Below are positions 1 to 38,874 of a stretch of 62,644 nt of DNA, piece after piece. Location: NCBI GenBank assembly GCA_937902985.1, contig CALFNG010000455.1, forward strand, positions 1 to 62,644. The letters are read 5' to 3'. The DNA is from an uncultured Myxococcales bacterium. GTDB taxonomy: Bacteria > Myxococcota_A > Polyangia > Polyangiales > Polyangiaceae. Made by a program: the position numbers and the translations under genes. The notes below the pieces were generated by a model. That model worked only from the letters and a program-made list of their open reading frames with translations, made no database searches and was not told where the DNA came from. Numbering within the stretch: position 1 is the stretch's first letter; every line of letters starts with the position of its first letter.

Positions 1-2
1 CG

Positions 3-1250
3 CAGCTGGCACCCCCGGACGCCGCGGCGGCCATCCCCGCCGCGGCTCGAGCCGCCGACCTCGACGTCGCGCGCATCGGCGCCGCGTCGGCCAGCACGGG
101 AAGCCCCGTCGTCGCCCTGGTCGAGGCCCTGCGGGCCGCGGTGTCGAGCGACGCCGCGGCGACCGTCCATCGCGGGGCGACGAGCCAGGACGTGCTCGAC
201 ACCGCGATGATGCTCATCGCGAAGCGGGCCGGGGCGATACTCCTGAAAGACCTCGCCGCGGCGGCCGATGCGGCGGCCCTGCTGGTCGAGCGGCACCGCG
301 GCGCGGTCATGGTCGGGCGCACGCTCCTGCAGCAGGCGGTGCCGGTGACCTTCGGTCTCAAGGCCGCCGGATGGCTCACCGCGCTGGACGCCGCGCGCAC
401 GCGGCTCGCCGACCTCGTTCGCGCGCGCCTGCCCATCCAGTTCGGTGGAGCCTCGGGCACCCTGGCTTCCCTGGGCGATCGTGGCGTCGACGTGGCGGCG
501 CTGCTGGCCGAGGAGCTCGGCCTCGCGATGCCGGTGGTCCCGTGGCACACGCTTCGTCTGACCGTGTTCGAGCTCGCCAGCGCGCTCGCGGGGGTCTCGC
601 TCGTCCTCGGAAAGACCGCCCGCGACGTGACGCTGCTGGCCCAGTCCGAGGTGGCCGAGGTCAGCGAGGCGGGCGACGCGGCCCGAGGCGGCTCGTCGAC
701 CATGCCGCAGAAGCGGAACCCCGTGGCGGCGGTCGCGATCCTCGGCTGCGCCCGGCGTGTCCCCGGGCTGCTCGCCACCCTCGCCGCCGCGGGCGAACAG
801 GAACACGAACGGGCGGCCGGTGCCTGGCACGCCGAGTGGGAACCCTTCGCCGACCTCGTACGGCTCACCGGCTCCGCGGCTGCCTGGAGTCGCGAGCTAC
901 TCGAGGGACTAAAGGTGGACCCTGCGCGCATGCGGACGAACCTCGAGGCCGCCGGGGGCATTCCGCTCGCGGAGCATCTGAGCGCGTTGCTCGCTCCGAC
1001 GATGGGCCCGCCGGCGCTCGATCTCGTCAAGGAGGCGGTCGCGCGGGCCCGGCGGTCGGGTCGACCGCTGCTCGACGCCCTCTTCGATCACCCAGCGACC
1101 GCCACGGCGCTCGCAAACGCGAACCTGGATCGAACGAAGGTGACCCGGGCACTGGAACCCGAGAGTTACCTGGGCAGCACGCAGACCTGGATCGATCGAG
1201 CGCTCGCGGCGCACGGGGCGTTGCGCGCGCGTGAACGCGTAACGCCATGA
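3..1250 (+). CDS. pcaB: 3-carboxy-cis,cis-muconate cycloisomerase, 5' end outside window
   Basis: The frame is open from the first bases of the window, so the start codon lies upstream and about 415 codons are visible. The product belongs to the fumarase/aspartase superfamily. The signature GSSTMPQKRNP is encoded near 689-721, and an HRGATSQD motif near 168-192 matches the second conserved region of the family. PcaB lactonises 3-carboxy-cis,cis-muconate to 4-carboxymuconolactone in the protocatechuate branch of the beta-ketoadipate pathway; it is cytoplasmic and homotetrameric in known members. Family membership is certain from the signature. The choice of PcaB over adenylosuccinate lyase rests on the next gene, which encodes the following two pca steps. 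Its stop overlaps the next start as ATGA at 1247-1250, indicating translational coupling. Confidence 0.9.
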   Translation, partial: QLAPPDAAAAIPAAARAADLDVARIGAASASTGSPVVALVEALRAAVSSDAAATVHRGATSQDVLDTAMMLIAKRAGAILLKDLAAAADAAALLVERHRGAVMVGRTLLQQAVPVTFGLKAAGWLTALDAARTRLADLVRARLPIQFGGASGTLASLGDRGVDVAALLAEELGLAMPVVPWHTLRLTVFELASALAGVSLVLGKTARDVTLLAQSEVAEVSEAGDAARGGSSTMPQKRNPVAAVAILGCARRVPGLLATLAAAGEQEHERAAGAWHAEWEPFADLVRLTGSAAAWSRELLEGLKVDPARMRTNLEAAGGIPLAEHLSALLAPTMGPPALDLVKEAVARARRSGRPLLDALFDHPATATALANANLDRTKVTRALEPESYLGSTQTWIDRALAAHGALRARERVTP

Positions 1251-4123
1251 CCGACGCCATGACCGCGGTCATGAACCACGTCGTGGAGGGTCCCGCGGAC
1301 GCCCCCGTCCTCGTGCTGGCGGGCTCGCTCGGCACGACGCTGGCGTCGTGGGAGCCGCTCCTGCCGGAGCTCTCGCGGGTCTTTCGAGTCGTCCGCTACG
1401 ACCATCGCGGTCACGGCGCCTCGAGAGCGCCCCCGGGTCCCTACGCCATGTCGGACCTGGGCGGCGACGTCCTGGCGTTGCTCGACCACCTGGCGATCGA
1501 CCGCGCGTCGTTCTGCGGGGTCTCGCTCGGCGGAATGGTGGGCATGTGGCTCGCGGTGCACGCGCCCAGCCGCATCGACCGCCTCGCTCTGGTCTGCACG
1601 TCGGCCTTCCTCCCCACGCGCGAAGCCTGGCAAGCGCGCGCCGCGACGGTCCGTGCGCAGGGGACGGAGGCCATCGTCGACGTCGTTCTCGCGCGCTGGT
1701 TCACGCCGTCGTTCGCGATCCGAGAATCAGGCCTCGTCGGTCGGGTCGCCCTGGCGTTCAAGCGAGTCGACCCGGAAGGGTACGCGGCGTGCTGCGAAGC
1801 GATCGGCTCGTGGGACCTTCGCTCGCACCTCGGAGCGATCACGGCGCCCACCCTGGCGATCGCGGGCGGCAAGGACCCCGCGACGCCTCCCGCCCATGCC
1901 TACGCGATCGGCGCGGGCATTCCCGGCGCGCGCGTCGCCGTTGTCGAAGACGCGGCGCACCTCGCCGCGATCGAACAGCCTGCCGCGGTCGGGCGGCTCC
2001 TGCTCGAACACCTGACGGGCCTCTCGCAGTTCGACCCGAACATCGACACCTACGAGGCGAACCGGGCGCAGAAAGGCTTCGATGGGGACGCCGAGCGGGC
2101 GCGCCGCGGCGAGGCGGTTCGTCGGGCCGTGCTGGGCGACGCGCACGTCGATCGAGCGCGCGCCTGGGCCACGGCGTTCTCGGCCCCCTTCCAGGAGCTG
2201 GTGAACCGGTTCCCCTGGGGCGACCTCTGGACCCGTCCGGGTTTGTCGCGCGCAGAGCGGAGCATCGTGACCCTGACGGCGCTCGCCGCGCTCCACCACG
2301 ACCATGAGCTCGCGATGCACGTCGTCGCGGCCCTCCGTAACGGCCTCACGCCGGAGCAGATCCGCGAGGTCCTCCTGCACACCGGCGCCTACGCAGGCAT
2401 CCCCGTGACGAACCGCGCCCTCGCGGTCGCCGAGGAAGCCCTGACGAAGGCGGGCGCGCTCTCGGTCGGCCCCGGCGAGCTGGGAGCCTCGGAACTCTCG
2501 CGGCCCCCGGCCGCAGCAAGGTCAACGCCCATGATCCAGCTCGACACGCCGCGCGTCCACTGGCAGCCCGGGGACGACATCGCCTCGATGGTGAGCCGCC
2601 ACGCGGAAGAGACTCCCGATCGAATCGCGCTCGTGCAGGGCGAGCGGTCGCAAACGTGGGCCGAGCTCGAACGGAGCGTCGAGCGGGTGGCGGGCGCGCT
2701 CGTCGCGTCCGGGTCGCAGCCGGGGGACCGGATCGCGCTGCTCGCGGCAAACTCGCCCGAGTACGTCGAGGTCTTCCTCGGCGCGCTACGCGCAGGGGCC
2801 TGCGTCGTGCCGCTTCCCACGATGGCGTCGGCCGAATCGCTCGCGGCCATGCTGGTCGACTCGGCCGCCAGGGCGCTCTTCGTCGACACGGACCATCGCG
2901 CCGCAGGCGAGGCGATCGCCGGCGCGGCCGTCACGCTGCGCGTGAACCTCGACGACGAGGCCCCCGCCGTGGCGGGAGGTTTTCGCTCGTACGTCGCCTG
3001 GCGCGACGCCGCCACGATGACGACCGCGCGCGCCCGCATCGCGGCCGTCGACGCGTTCGACGTCATCTACAGCTCCGGGACCACTGGCGTGCCCAAGGGC
3101 ATCGTCCACAGCCACGGCGCGCGCCGCGCCAGCTACGGCGGCGAGCGCGCCCGGTACTTTTCGCGCGAGAGCGTCAACATCGTGGCGACGCCCTTCTACT
3201 CGAATACGACCAGCGTGACGTGGCTGCTCACGACCGCGCACGGTGGCACGAACGTGCTCCTCGGGAAGTTCTCCGCTGAGGCGTTCATCGCTGCCGTCGA
3301 GAGGCATCGGGCGACCCACGCGATGCTCGTTCCCGTGCAGTACGATCGCATCCTCGCCTCCGAGCGCTTCCGCGGCGCCGATCTCGCGAGCCTGCGCTAC
3401 CTCTTCTCGACGAGCGCCCCGCTCCGGGCGGAGAGCAAGCGCCGCATTCTCGCCGAGACGAGCGCCGAGCTGATCGAAATCTACGGCCTGACCGAGGGGG
3501 GACCCGTGACGGTGCTCGAGGCCCGCGCGCATCCCGACAAGCTCGCGAGCGTGGGGCGCCCTTCGGGCGGGTGCAAGGTGCGCATCGTCGACGAGGCTGG
3601 GGGTGACGTGCCGCCGGGGCAGGTCGGCGAGGTGATGGGGCGATCCGCGAACATGATGAGCGGCTACCTCAATCGGCCCGGCGACACCCAGGCCCTCCTC
3701 GTTCGTGATCCGTCGGGGGAGCTCTACTTCCGAACGGGCGATCTGGGCCGCTTCGACGAAGACGGGTTCCTCTATTTGCTCGATCGCAAGAAGGACATCA
3801 TCATTTCGGGCGGCTTCAACGTCTACGCGAGCGATCTCGAGTCGGTGCTCGCGTCGCATCCGGGGGTGGTCGAGGTCGCGGTCATCGGTATTCCGAGCGA
3901 ACGGTGGGGCGAGACCCCGCTCGGCCTCGTGGTCGCGCGGGCAGGCGCCGAGGTGACCGCGGAGGAGCTCCGCGATTATTGCAACGCGCGCGTGGGCAAG
4001 ATGCAGCGCGTCTCGGCCGTCGAGTTGCGCCCGGCGCTACCGAAGAACAGCATCGGGAAGGTTCTCAAACGCGAGCTCCGGGGCCCCTATTGGCAAGGCC
4101 TGCCCGGCGGCAAGACGACGTGA
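1247..4123 (+). CDS. pcaL: PcaD-PcaC fusion (PcaL) continued in frame into an AMP-forming acyl-CoA ligase
   Basis: One uninterrupted 958-codon frame. Residues 1-258 are an alpha/beta hydrolase like 3-oxoadipate enol-lactonase, with nucleophile elbow GVSLGG (Ser93), Asp210 in GGKD and His238. Residues about 259-405 match 4-carboxymuconolactone decarboxylase (AhpD-like), including DLWTRPGLSRAERSIVTL and the ALHHDHELAMH segment. After a linker of about 22 residues, residues 429-958 form an acyl-CoA synthetase: P-loop-like YSSGTTGVPKG (608-618), YGLTEGG, YFRTGDLG and a C-terminal Lys938 in KNSIGKVLKREL. PcaD-PcaC fusions (PcaL) are known; the appended ligase is unusual. I infer it could activate 3-oxoadipate with ATP and CoA in place of the PcaIJ transferase. 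An ATG at 2531 with a weak AAGG upstream could start a separate ligase polypeptide. The ligase substrate cannot be read from sequence and could instead be an aromatic acid. Confidence 0.88.
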   Translation: MTDAMTAVMNHVVEGPADAPVLVLAGSLGTTLASWEPLLPELSRVFRVVRYDHRGHGASRAPPGPYAMSDLGGDVLALLDHLAIDRASFCGVSLGGMVGMWLAVHAPSRIDRLALVCTSAFLPTREAWQARAATVRAQGTEAIVDVVLARWFTPSFAIRESGLVGRVALAFKRVDPEGYAACCEAIGSWDLRSHLGAITAPTLAIAGGKDPATPPAHAYAIGAGIPGARVAVVEDAAHLAAIEQPAAVGRLLLEHLTGLSQFDPNIDTYEANRAQKGFDGDAERARRGEAVRRAVLGDAHVDRARAWATAFSAPFQELVNRFPWGDLWTRPGLSRAERSIVTLTALAALHHDHELAMHVVAALRNGLTPEQIREVLLHTGAYAGIPVTNRALAVAEEALTKAGALSVGPGELGASELSRPPAAARSTPMIQLDTPRVHWQPGDDIASMVSRHAEETPDRIALVQGERSQTWAELERSVERVAGALVASGSQPGDRIALLAANSPEYVEVFLGALRAGACVVPLPTMASAESLAAMLVDSAARALFVDTDHRAAGEAIAGAAVTLRVNLDDEAPAVAGGFRSYVAWRDAATMTTARARIAAVDAFDVIYSSGTTGVPKGIVHSHGARRASYGGERARYFSRESVNIVATPFYSNTTSVTWLLTTAHGGTNVLLGKFSAEAFIAAVERHRATHAMLVPVQYDRILASERFRGADLASLRYLFSTSAPLRAESKRRILAETSAELIEIYGLTEGGPVTVLEARAHPDKLASVGRPSGGCKVRIVDEAGGDVPPGQVGEVMGRSANMMSGYLNRPGDTQALLVRDPSGELYFRTGDLGRFDEDGFLYLLDRKKDIIISGGFNVYASDLESVLASHPGVVEVAVIGIPSERWGETPLGLVVARAGAEVTAEELRDYCNARVGKMQRVSAVELRPALPKNSIGKVLKRELRGPYWQGLPGGKTT

Positions 4124-4786: not shown

Positions 4787-7312
4787 TTGGGGTCGTCGGA
4801 TCATCCCCGCCGCTGGAAGGCTCTCTTCGCCTCCCCGCTGCTCCTCATTGCGCTCGCGACGCGCGTCGCGTCGGCGCAGATGCCCGCGCCTGCCGCCACG
4901 GCCGGCGCTGCCGCCGCGACCGGCGCCGCAGCCGCGACCGACGTCACTCCGCCGGCGCCCATCGACGTGGGCTCGGTCGCGTATCCGCCCGATGCGCGAG
5001 GGGACGCGACCGTGATGCTCGAAGTCACGATCGACGTCGTGGGTCGCGTGTCGAGCGCGCGCGCGCTCGACGGCGTCGAGCCGTTCACGTCCGCGGCCGT
5101 CGAAGCGGCGCTCGCGTGGACCTTCGTGCCGGGGCAGCGCGCGGGAAAGCCCGTCTCGACGCGCGTTCACCTGCTCGTGGAGTTTCACGCGCCAACCCCG
5201 GCGCCGCCTCCCGCCGGCGGCCCGCCTGTCACGGGCGGCGCGACCGGCGCGACCCGGCCGAGCCCGGCCGAGCCCACGGCCGTGACGCCCGTCGAAGAAG
5301 TGAACGTGCGCGGCAACCGGTCCGAGATCGCGACGACGCGGCTCGGCGGGGTCGAGGTCCGTCAGCTCCCCGGCGCCTTCGGCGACGCGTTCCGCGCCAT
5401 CGAAGCGCTGCCCGGCGTCACGCCCATGGTGAGCGGATTGCCCTTCTTCTTCGTGCGCGGCGCGCCGCCCGGGGACATTGGTTACTTCATCGACGGCGTT
5501 CGCGTCCCGCTCCTCTATCACCTCGCGCTCGGGCCGAGCGTCGTGCACCCGGGGCTCATCGATCACGTCGACTTCTATCCCGGCGGCTATCCGGCGCGCT
5601 TCGGGCGCTACGCGGGGGGTATCTTGGCCGGCGAGACGCTGCCCCCGGCCACGAAGGCGCACGGCGAGGCGAACGTGCGCCTCTTCGACGCCGGCGCGCT
5701 GGCCGAGGCGCCGTTCGACGAAGGACGGCTGACGGCGCTCGTGGCGGGCCGCTACAGCTACACGGCGGCGCTCGTGCAGCTCTTCGCGAAAGACACCCGC
5801 GTCGGATACTGGGACTACCAGACCCGAGTCGCGTATCGACTGACACCAAAAGACCGTATCTCCTTCTTCCTCTTCGGCAGCTTCGACGAGATCGACAACC
5901 GCAACCGTCAGAACGTGTTCGACGGCGAAGTCTCCACCCAGACGTTGAGCGACTTCTATCCCATCTTCAAGACGGAGTTTCATCGCCTCGATCTCCGCTA
6001 CGACCACGACACGGCGCGCGGGCACCTGCGCCTCGCCGCGACGCTCGGCGTCGAAGACTCGCTCGCGGGCTCGAGCCCGACCGACCGCACCGCCGTGATC
6101 GCGCACAGCCTCGGCCTCCGCACCGAGGGCGAGGAGCGGCTCAGCGCCGAGCTGAAGCTCCGCTACGGCGCCGACGTCGACCTCTATCACTATTCGATCG
6201 ACACCGGTCAGAGCACGATGCTCGACGTCCGATCGCTCTACCCCGATCGCAACGACGTGATGGTGGGCGCCTACGCCGACACCATCTGGAAGGCCAGCGA
6301 CCGCGTCGAGGTCGTGCCCGGGCTCCGCGTCGACGCGTTCACGTCGCGCCTCGCTTCGCCGGCGCCGGAGGGCCCCTCGAACGACAGGACGACCGCGCTC
6401 CCGGGAGCGCTCTCGAACGCGACCGCGACCCTCGGCGTCGACCCGAGGGTGGCGACGCGGGTGGCCACGTCGCGCCGCGTGACGTGGGTAACGACGTTCG
6501 GCGTGTCGCATCAACCGCCGAGCCTCTTCGTGCCCATTCCCGGTCTGACGCTCGGGCGCCTCAACAGCGGACTCCAGACCTCGCTCCAGGCGAGCCAGGG
6601 GTTCGAGTGGGCGCTGCCCCTCGACTTCACGCTGACCACCACCGCGTTCTTGCACGACTACCTCGGCCTCACCGACGCCACGGCGACGTGCCTCGGCAAC
6701 AGCTCCGATCTCTCGCAGGGCTCGAACGACTGCCTCGCCGAGCGCGTGAGCGGCCGTGCGTTCGGCGTGGAGCTCCTCGCGCGACGCGATCTCACCAAGC
6801 GCTTCACGGGCTGGCTCTCGTACACCCTCTCGCGAACGACGCGCGACACCCACGGCCTCATCGGCCCGGCGCCGACGTTCTTCGGCCAGGGCGTTCCGGC
6901 GCCCAGCCCGAGCCTTCAGGAGATTCCTTCGGAGTTCGACCGCACCCACGTGCTCAACGTCATCGGCGCGCTCGATCTCGGCAAGGGCTGGCGCGCGGGC
7001 GCGCGCGTCGTCTTCTATACCGGCAGGCCGTACTCGCCGCAGGTGGAAGGCGTGCCCATACCGCCCTTCAATTCGCTTCGCCTGCCGGCGTTCTATCGAA
7101 TCGACGTTCGACTCGAGAAGCGCTGGCGCGCGTTCGGGAACGGCGAGATGGCGTTCGTCCTCGAAGGGATGAACGTGACCCTCCACAAGGAGGCCATCGC
7201 CATCACTTGCCAGAACAATGGCTCGCTCGCGCCCTTCAAGCTCGACGCGTGCGCTCCAGAGTACATTGGCCCGGTGAGCGTGCCGAGCATCGGCTTCGAA
7301 GGGGCCATCTGA
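4787..7312 (+). CDS. TonB-dependent outer-membrane receptor with N-terminal TonB-like domain
   Basis: An 841-residue protein starting at TTG 4787; an in-frame stop at 4736 and no ATG leave this or CTG 4748 as starts. Residues 13-30 form a signal peptide ending near ASA. Residues about 65-133 resemble the TonB C-terminal domain (YPPDARGDATVMLEVTIDVV, VEAALAWTFVPGQRAGKPVS). A Pro/Ala/Gly linker (134-165) leads to a TonB-box-like EEVNVRG (171-176) and a plug domain with FFVRGAPPGDIGYFIDGVRV. From about 280 on there are alternating beta-strand segments of a 22-strand-type barrel. The cargo is unknown. Carrying a TonB-like domain on the receptor itself is a pattern I associate with myxobacteria. 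No transporter genes lie next to it; the gene ends convergently against the FAD oxidoreductase. Confidence 0.85.
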   Translation: MGSSDHPRRWKALFASPLLLIALATRVASAQMPAPAATAGAAAATGAAAATDVTPPAPIDVGSVAYPPDARGDATVMLEVTIDVVGRVSSARALDGVEPFTSAAVEAALAWTFVPGQRAGKPVSTRVHLLVEFHAPTPAPPPAGGPPVTGGATGATRPSPAEPTAVTPVEEVNVRGNRSEIATTRLGGVEVRQLPGAFGDAFRAIEALPGVTPMVSGLPFFFVRGAPPGDIGYFIDGVRVPLLYHLALGPSVVHPGLIDHVDFYPGGYPARFGRYAGGILAGETLPPATKAHGEANVRLFDAGALAEAPFDEGRLTALVAGRYSYTAALVQLFAKDTRVGYWDYQTRVAYRLTPKDRISFFLFGSFDEIDNRNRQNVFDGEVSTQTLSDFYPIFKTEFHRLDLRYDHDTARGHLRLAATLGVEDSLAGSSPTDRTAVIAHSLGLRTEGEERLSAELKLRYGADVDLYHYSIDTGQSTMLDVRSLYPDRNDVMVGAYADTIWKASDRVEVVPGLRVDAFTSRLASPAPEGPSNDRTTALPGALSNATATLGVDPRVATRVATSRRVTWVTTFGVSHQPPSLFVPIPGLTLGRLNSGLQTSLQASQGFEWALPLDFTLTTTAFLHDYLGLTDATATCLGNSSDLSQGSNDCLAERVSGRAFGVELLARRDLTKRFTGWLSYTLSRTTRDTHGLIGPAPTFFGQGVPAPSPSLQEIPSEFDRTHVLNVIGALDLGKGWRAGARVVFYTGRPYSPQVEGVPIPPFNSLRLPAFYRIDVRLEKRWRAFGNGEMAFVLEGMNVTLHKEAIAITCQNNGSLAPFKLDACAPEYIGPVSVPSIGFEGAI

Positions 7313-13047: not shown

Positions 13048-13110
13048 GTGGCGGCATGATGAGCGAGCTCGTTGTCGGGTGCCTCCTGCTCGAGGGCGCC
13101 GCGATCGCTG

Positions 13111-13143
13111 TTCAGCTAGAGCGAGCGGAGGCCAAGCCGAACG
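13111..13143 (+). repeat. 33-bp direct repeat, copy 1
   Basis: Begins TTCAGCTAGAGCGAGCGGAG and differs at one position (C for T) from the copy at 13189-13221. The two are 78 bases apart, start to start. Two copies only, with no array. Confidence 0.85.
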
Positions 13144-13188
13144 AGATGGCCAAGAGCTCAAACCACTCTAGGACCTCTCTCCAGGCCG

Positions 13189-13221
13189 TTCAGCTAGAGC
13201 GAGCGGAGGCTAAGCCGAACG
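13189..13221 (+). repeat. 33-bp direct repeat, copy 2
   Basis: Second copy of the 33-bp repeat. Its CTAGAGCGAGCGGAGG core (13194-13209) is also the left arm of the palindromic element ending at 13321. Confidence 0.85.
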
Positions 13222-38535: not shown

Positions 38536-38874
38536 GCCTGACTGCGGTCAGGGACGCCTGAATGCGTGCGTTCAGGAAGCGCCGGACCGCGGTCCTCCAG
38601 CGCCCGAATGCGGTGAGGGGGCGCCTGAACGCGATCCTCCAGCGCCTGAATGCGTTCAGGAAGCGCCGGACCGGGGTCCTCCAGCGCCTGGATGCGGTCA
38701 GGGGACGCCGGACCGCGCTCCTTCAGCGCCTGGATGCGCTCAGGAGACGCCGGACCGCGGTCCTCTCGCGCCCGAATGCGTTCGGGCGGCTCATGAATAC
38801 CGTCAGGCGGCTCCTGAATGCTGTCAGGGGACGCCTGGGTGCGCTCAGGCGGCTCTTGGGACGATCCCCGCGGG
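38536..38874 (+). repeat. 21-bp tandem array, about 16 units, with alternating palindromes
   Basis: Contiguous 21-base units (one 20, one 25) from 38536 to 38874. Type A is like GCCTGAATGCGGTCAGGGGA plus C, type B like GCCGGACCGCGGTCCTCCAG plus C. A and B units tend to alternate between 38581 and 38769. Each unit is an imperfect palindrome (CCTGA...TCAGG, or GGACCGCGGTCC). Because 21 is divisible by three, all frames stay open. From ATG 38562 one frame reads as heptads such as RLNAFRK, RRTAVLQ, RLDAVRG. No convincing ribosome site precedes it and it runs into the antisense of the next gene, so I do not call a gene. The array fills the gap to the NTPase gene end at 38890. Confidence 0.9.

Follow-up and report, generated by a model that had tools for sequence, protein, structure and literature searches.

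An in-frame fusion of PcaDC to an acyl-CoA ligase at the end of a predicted protocatechuate operon in a myxobacterium-like genome

Introduction

Can the last steps of a protocatechuate branch, up to and including the activation of 3-oxoadipate, be carried by a single polypeptide? The question is raised by a gene in the 62,644-nucleotide stretch of DNA analysed here (the window; contig C455), which comes from a single soil myxobacterium-like MAG that is 96% complete. According to the original prediction, this gene joins an enol-lactonase, a carboxymuconolactone decarboxylase and an AMP-forming CoA ligase, and the ligase would replace the CoA-transferase PcaIJ. The activation of 3-oxoadipate has been described as a CoA-transferase step (PMC10406623), and a search of open-access literature found no mention of a 3-oxoadipate CoA ligase.

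Results

The fused gene is a 958-codon ORF on the forward strand (1247–4123) that is open throughout and ends in TGA, and its start ATG overlaps the stop codon of pcaB (ATGA, 1247–1250). It comprises a complete PcaDC (3-oxoadipate enol-lactonase/carboxymuconolactone decarboxylase; residues 1–400, 1247–2446, +), a linker (residues 401–428, 2447–2530, +) and a complete AMP-forming acyl-CoA ligase (residues 429–958, 2531–4123, +), and the uninterrupted frame of the original prediction, with both domains complete, was thus confirmed. The Ser-Asp-His triad of the lactonase (Ser93, Asp210 and His238) is complete; these residues and Lys938 of the ligase were located where they had been placed, and the YSSGTTGVPKG motif is present.

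Residues 9–400 match the NCBIfam model bifunc_PcaDC (NF051488) at 489 bits (cut-off, 390) over profile positions 2–374 of 375, with the lactonase first (residues 9–256, approximately) and the decarboxylase, CMD, second (residues 315–397; Pfam Abhydrolase_1 and CMD). The likeness to PcaDC/PcaL therefore covers the whole profile, and it extends to gene order, as the gene follows pcaH, pcaG and pcaB as in Streptomyces. In contrast, the known protein stops after the decarboxylase, whereas the present frame runs on for 558 more residues through a linker and a CoA ligase. Because NCBIfam already holds a model for the PcaDC fusion, the novelty claimed for a trifunctional protein falls away for the PcaDC portion, which is of a known kind, and stands for the attachment of the ligase, which, judged from sequence, is alone new within everything searched. 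Approximately 16 extra residues (274–289; window about 2065–2112) lie between the lactonase and the decarboxylase and are missing from the PcaDC proteins of three genomes of the order (G022, G156 and G157).

In the second half, residues 445–951 form a complete AMP-forming acyl-CoA ligase, with AMP-binding (PF00501, 263 bits) at residues 450–808 and AMP-binding_C (PF13193) at residues 864–938. The ANL motifs are present (YSSGTTGVPKG, 608–618; YGLTEGG, 746–752; TGD, 830–835; catalytic Lys938), and Lys938 and the core motif residues are invariant among the aligned ligase orthologues. The fused ligase has all core motifs and both Pfam domains in common with Class I adenylate-forming ligases (ANL superfamily, PRK06187-like), whereas its subclade carries motifs of its own, TPxYSNTT and LVPVQYxRI. 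No curated equivalog matched the ligase part above cut-off, and its pocket shows no clear substrate signature. Arg701, a position occupied by Arg in all orthologues aligned, corresponds to MatB Arg255/Arg236, which a published analysis placed near bound methylmalonyl-CoA (PMC6122825). A pocket like that of malonyl-CoA synthetase (MatB) was nevertheless ruled out: of the RpMatB contacts Arg255, Arg299 and His209, Arg701 matches the first, and the other two aligned positions are neither Arg nor His, so that one of the three malonate-contact residues is kept (PMC6122825).

The window starts inside pcaB (3-carboxy-cis,cis-muconate cycloisomerase; 1–1250, +) at the end of contig C455, and the truncated protein matches PRK09053 at 396 bits and TIGR02426 at 332 bits. 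The reversed end of contig C460 overlaps window positions 1–47 (L103 1–47) with 4 mismatches in 47 and carries the missing pcaB start; from this overlap and the gene content we infer that C460 joins C455. The mismatches themselves suggest either strain variation in the MAG or an error at the contig ends. Across the join, the operon would run feruloyl-CoA synthase, SDR, CouO-like hydrolase, pobA, pcaH, pcaG, pcaB and PcaDC–ligase, and pcaIJ and pcaF are absent from this reconstructed operon. The feruloyl-CoA synthase-like ligase matches PRK12582 at 774 bits, just under the cut-off of 777, and its plasmid homologues are annotated as feruloyl-CoA synthase; the CouO-like amidohydrolase is 67% identical to a protein annotated as 4-hydroxyphenyl-beta-ketoacyl-CoA hydrolase. 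A divergent MarR gene heads the cassette on C460, beside the feruloyl-CoA synthase-like ligase, and is directly followed by a MetE-like methyltransferase gene (L103 6931–8049, C460; PRK06520, 450 bits).

In having a feruloyl-CoA synthase, an SDR, a CouO-like amidohydrolase and a divergent MarR gene upstream, the cassette resembles the cou/ferulate operons (CouL, CouN, CouO and CouR); unlike them, it continues into pobA-pcaHGB-PcaDC-ligase, and a crotonase was not found among the cassette genes. A Streptomyces plasmid operon has the order pcaIJF-HGB-L-pobA, and the same HGB-L block occurs here, minus IJF and plus the attached ligase. The operon is thus, by its predicted gene content, a route from hydroxycinnamate through protocatechuate to 3-oxoadipate in which the fused gene comes last.

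Several other features of the window were recorded. A gene for a TonB-dependent receptor (4787–7312, +) encodes a TonB C-terminal domain (residues 67–134) ahead of the plug and barrel. Two 37-nt direct repeats, 95% identical and with starts 78 nt apart, lie at 13107–13143 and 13185–13221, and a search of the window that tolerated up to 3 mismatches gave no third copy of the repeat core. At 38567–38780, a 42-nt (84-nt) unit is repeated in tandem in 5.1 (2.5) copies, and degenerate 21-nt copies follow.

The case for a single gene rests on two complete domains that are read in one frame with no intervening stop. The 28-codon linker contains no in-frame stop, and the claim that none lies between residues 406 and 429 is upheld by the assembly. 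As a stop-free run of 28 codons is expected by chance with a probability of about 0.66 at the local base composition, the missing stop is by itself weak evidence for one gene. Alignment with G022, G156 and G157 indicates that the linker is absent from relatives whose PcaDC stops there; across the three codon positions its GC content (0.75/0.75/0.82) varies less than that of the flanking domains, and it has no structure in a weak AlphaFold2 model of the full chain (mean pLDDT 55 from a 7-sequence alignment). An AAGG (2518–2521, +), by sequence a possible ribosome-binding site, precedes ATG 2531 by 9 nt, and this internal start could possibly release free ligase as a second product. The two halves might even act separately, with the ligase made mainly from ATG 2531 or the chain cut, in which case the fusion would be functionally meaningless. 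The AAGG and the flat codon composition of the linker fit such an arrangement, as does the closest ligase orthologue (same-genus G001, 70% identity), which has a GTG start at the residue matching Met429 and overlaps the preceding gene. However, no PcaDC stop precedes the ligase, so that each fully translated PcaDC chain bears a ligase, and we consider separate action improbable.

No other three-domain fusion was found among 184 genomes of the order, in a 379-genome phylum sample or on plasmids, and the domain order that the original prediction proposed to seek in related genomes was therefore not seen in them. A PcaDC query of the 184 genomes returned just three other PcaDC fusions (G022, G156 and G157), each of which stops at the point where the linker would start, together with matches to the lactonase alone in G003 and G176; plasmid records gave no match covering 80% of the query. 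The scan of genome contigs relied on exact short patterns from one sequence, which distant fusions outside the phylum could escape. Ligase orthologues, at 43–70% identity, are standalone in every case examined and occur in genomes of the order, Halieaceae, a Desulfobacteraceae MAG and Paracoccus, and on plasmids of Skermanella, Cupriavidus, Sphingopyxis and Mameliella. Every homologue found is thus split at the linker, a pattern that had been set against the prediction from the outset; it confines the fusion to a single MAG but does not make it false. Such a singleton, with all relatives split, could reflect an assembly or consensus error that hides a real stop between pcaDC and the ligase gene in the organism, and the mismatches in the contig-end overlap do indicate some strain variation or error. 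Yet a single contig carries both domains in one unbroken frame, and a substitution error exactly at the stop codon is unlikely; we regard an error of this kind as very improbable.

No dedicated PcaIJ was found among the CoA_trans profile matches in the assembly, although, in a genome 96% complete, such a pair may conceivably have been missed. The three matches in the genome amount to one A/B pair broken across contigs C410 and C376. This pair belongs to the PcaI/ScoA and PcaJ/ScoB subfamilies, in which membership does not tell one function from the other. Of 58 genomes searched (own genome counted), 44 gave a match to the A subunit, mostly at 70–84% identity; they include G001 and G002, in which pcaGH was not found. 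All four pcaGH-bearing relatives (G003, G022, G156 and G157) have PcaIJ adjoining pcaGH, and two of them, G003 and G022, carry the common 3-oxoacid CoA-transferase in addition to the cluster PcaIJ. A PcaIJ hidden elsewhere in the genome was rejected, as the sole pair is a transferase that most relatives share and is at most 62% identical to pca-cluster PcaI. The expected absence of pcaI and pcaJ thus holds for a dedicated pair, which the pcaGH-bearing relatives keep, but elsewhere the genome does encode a PcaI/ScoA-subfamily transferase. This resident transferase could by analogy act on 3-oxoadipate, because the fungal enzyme for the step, KstA, is SCOT-like (56% identical to human SCOT; PMC10406623). 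Contig C459 encodes a PcaF-like thiolase that scores 544 bits against a cut-off of 597, a value that none of the control genomes attained.

At the loci examined, no pca genes were found beside the ligase orthologues; their neighbours are MaoC/SDR, cytochrome P450 or panB genes. Orthologues also occur in G001 (77% complete), G102 and G105, genomes without any intradiol dioxygenase match. Because of these settings, the ancestral substrate of the ligase family was probably something other than 3-oxoadipate, and the ligase would have had a different role before its recruitment. It is therefore conceivable that the fusion is real and that its ligase activates another acid from the operon (aromatic, hydroxycinnamic or short acyl), with the resident SCOT-type transferase handling 3-oxoadipate. 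The occurrence of the family elsewhere without pca context and with neighbours resembling those of beta-oxidation is in keeping with this, as are the PcaI/ScoA-subfamily transferase in the genome and the SCOT-like fungal enzyme. Feruloyl-CoA synthetase is likewise among the best PDB matches of the ligase, but the match level is generic to many acyl-CoA ligases. Moreover, a feruloyl-CoA synthase for hydroxycinnamate entry is already in the operon, and G003 and G022 keep PcaIJ although both have the same SCOT. On this balance, activation of another acid appears rather doubtful, though far from negligible.

Discussion

Two CoA-dependent activations would be needed on the operon route, one of hydroxycinnamate and one of 3-oxoadipate. 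Because the feruloyl-CoA synthase of the operon already covers hydroxycinnamate entry, 3-oxoadipate would be left for the fused ligase, an argument by elimination and not a proof. Comparable cassettes in Rhizobium and Terrarubrum have feruloyl-CoA synthase as their ligase and no second ligase beside it. A hydroxycinnamate ligase (the CouL role) was also weighed for the fused ligase and lowered, as feruloyl-CoA synthase heads the same operon. We infer both 3-oxoadipate as the ligase substrate and the synthesis of the whole chain, and we judge it nearly an even call that the fused gene encodes a tethered enzyme for the closing steps of the beta-ketoadipate pathway in its protocatechuate branch, with a predicted ligase step from 3-oxoadipate to 3-oxoadipyl-CoA in place of PcaIJ. 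Genomic context gives this replacement good support. The fuller proposal, that an ATP-dependent 3-oxoadipate:CoA ligase displaced PcaIJ and was joined to PcaDC, so that 4-carboxymuconolactone would be carried to 3-oxoadipyl-CoA on one chain, is possible but leans towards the doubtful.

If the ligase does act on 3-oxoadipate, the PcaC domain would decarboxylate 4-carboxymuconolactone, hydrolysis of the enol-lactone by the PcaD domain would yield 3-oxoadipate, and the ligase would adenylate this product and transfer it to CoA, giving 3-oxoadipyl-CoA, after which the PcaF-like thiolase would finish the pathway. The tether could hold 3-oxoadipate close to the ligase, a putative form of channelling. 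As for its origin, a standalone ligase of the genus was probably placed behind pcaDC, and the intervening stop codon would then have been lost. The proposed step is that of PcaIJ (3-oxoadipate:succinyl-CoA transferase), a two-subunit enzyme, whereas the fused ligase belongs to an unrelated family with ATP-to-AMP chemistry and no need of succinyl-CoA. PcaIJ takes CoA from succinyl-CoA, and the thiolase gives succinyl-CoA back; with a ligase instead, each turn would cost the conversion of ATP to AMP.

A natural ligase of this kind, if the assignment is true, would represent a second solution to 3-oxoadipate activation, with a different energy cost and without a requirement for succinyl-CoA. In that case, a single-chain catalyst of three steps could also serve in the conversion of lignin-derived aromatics.
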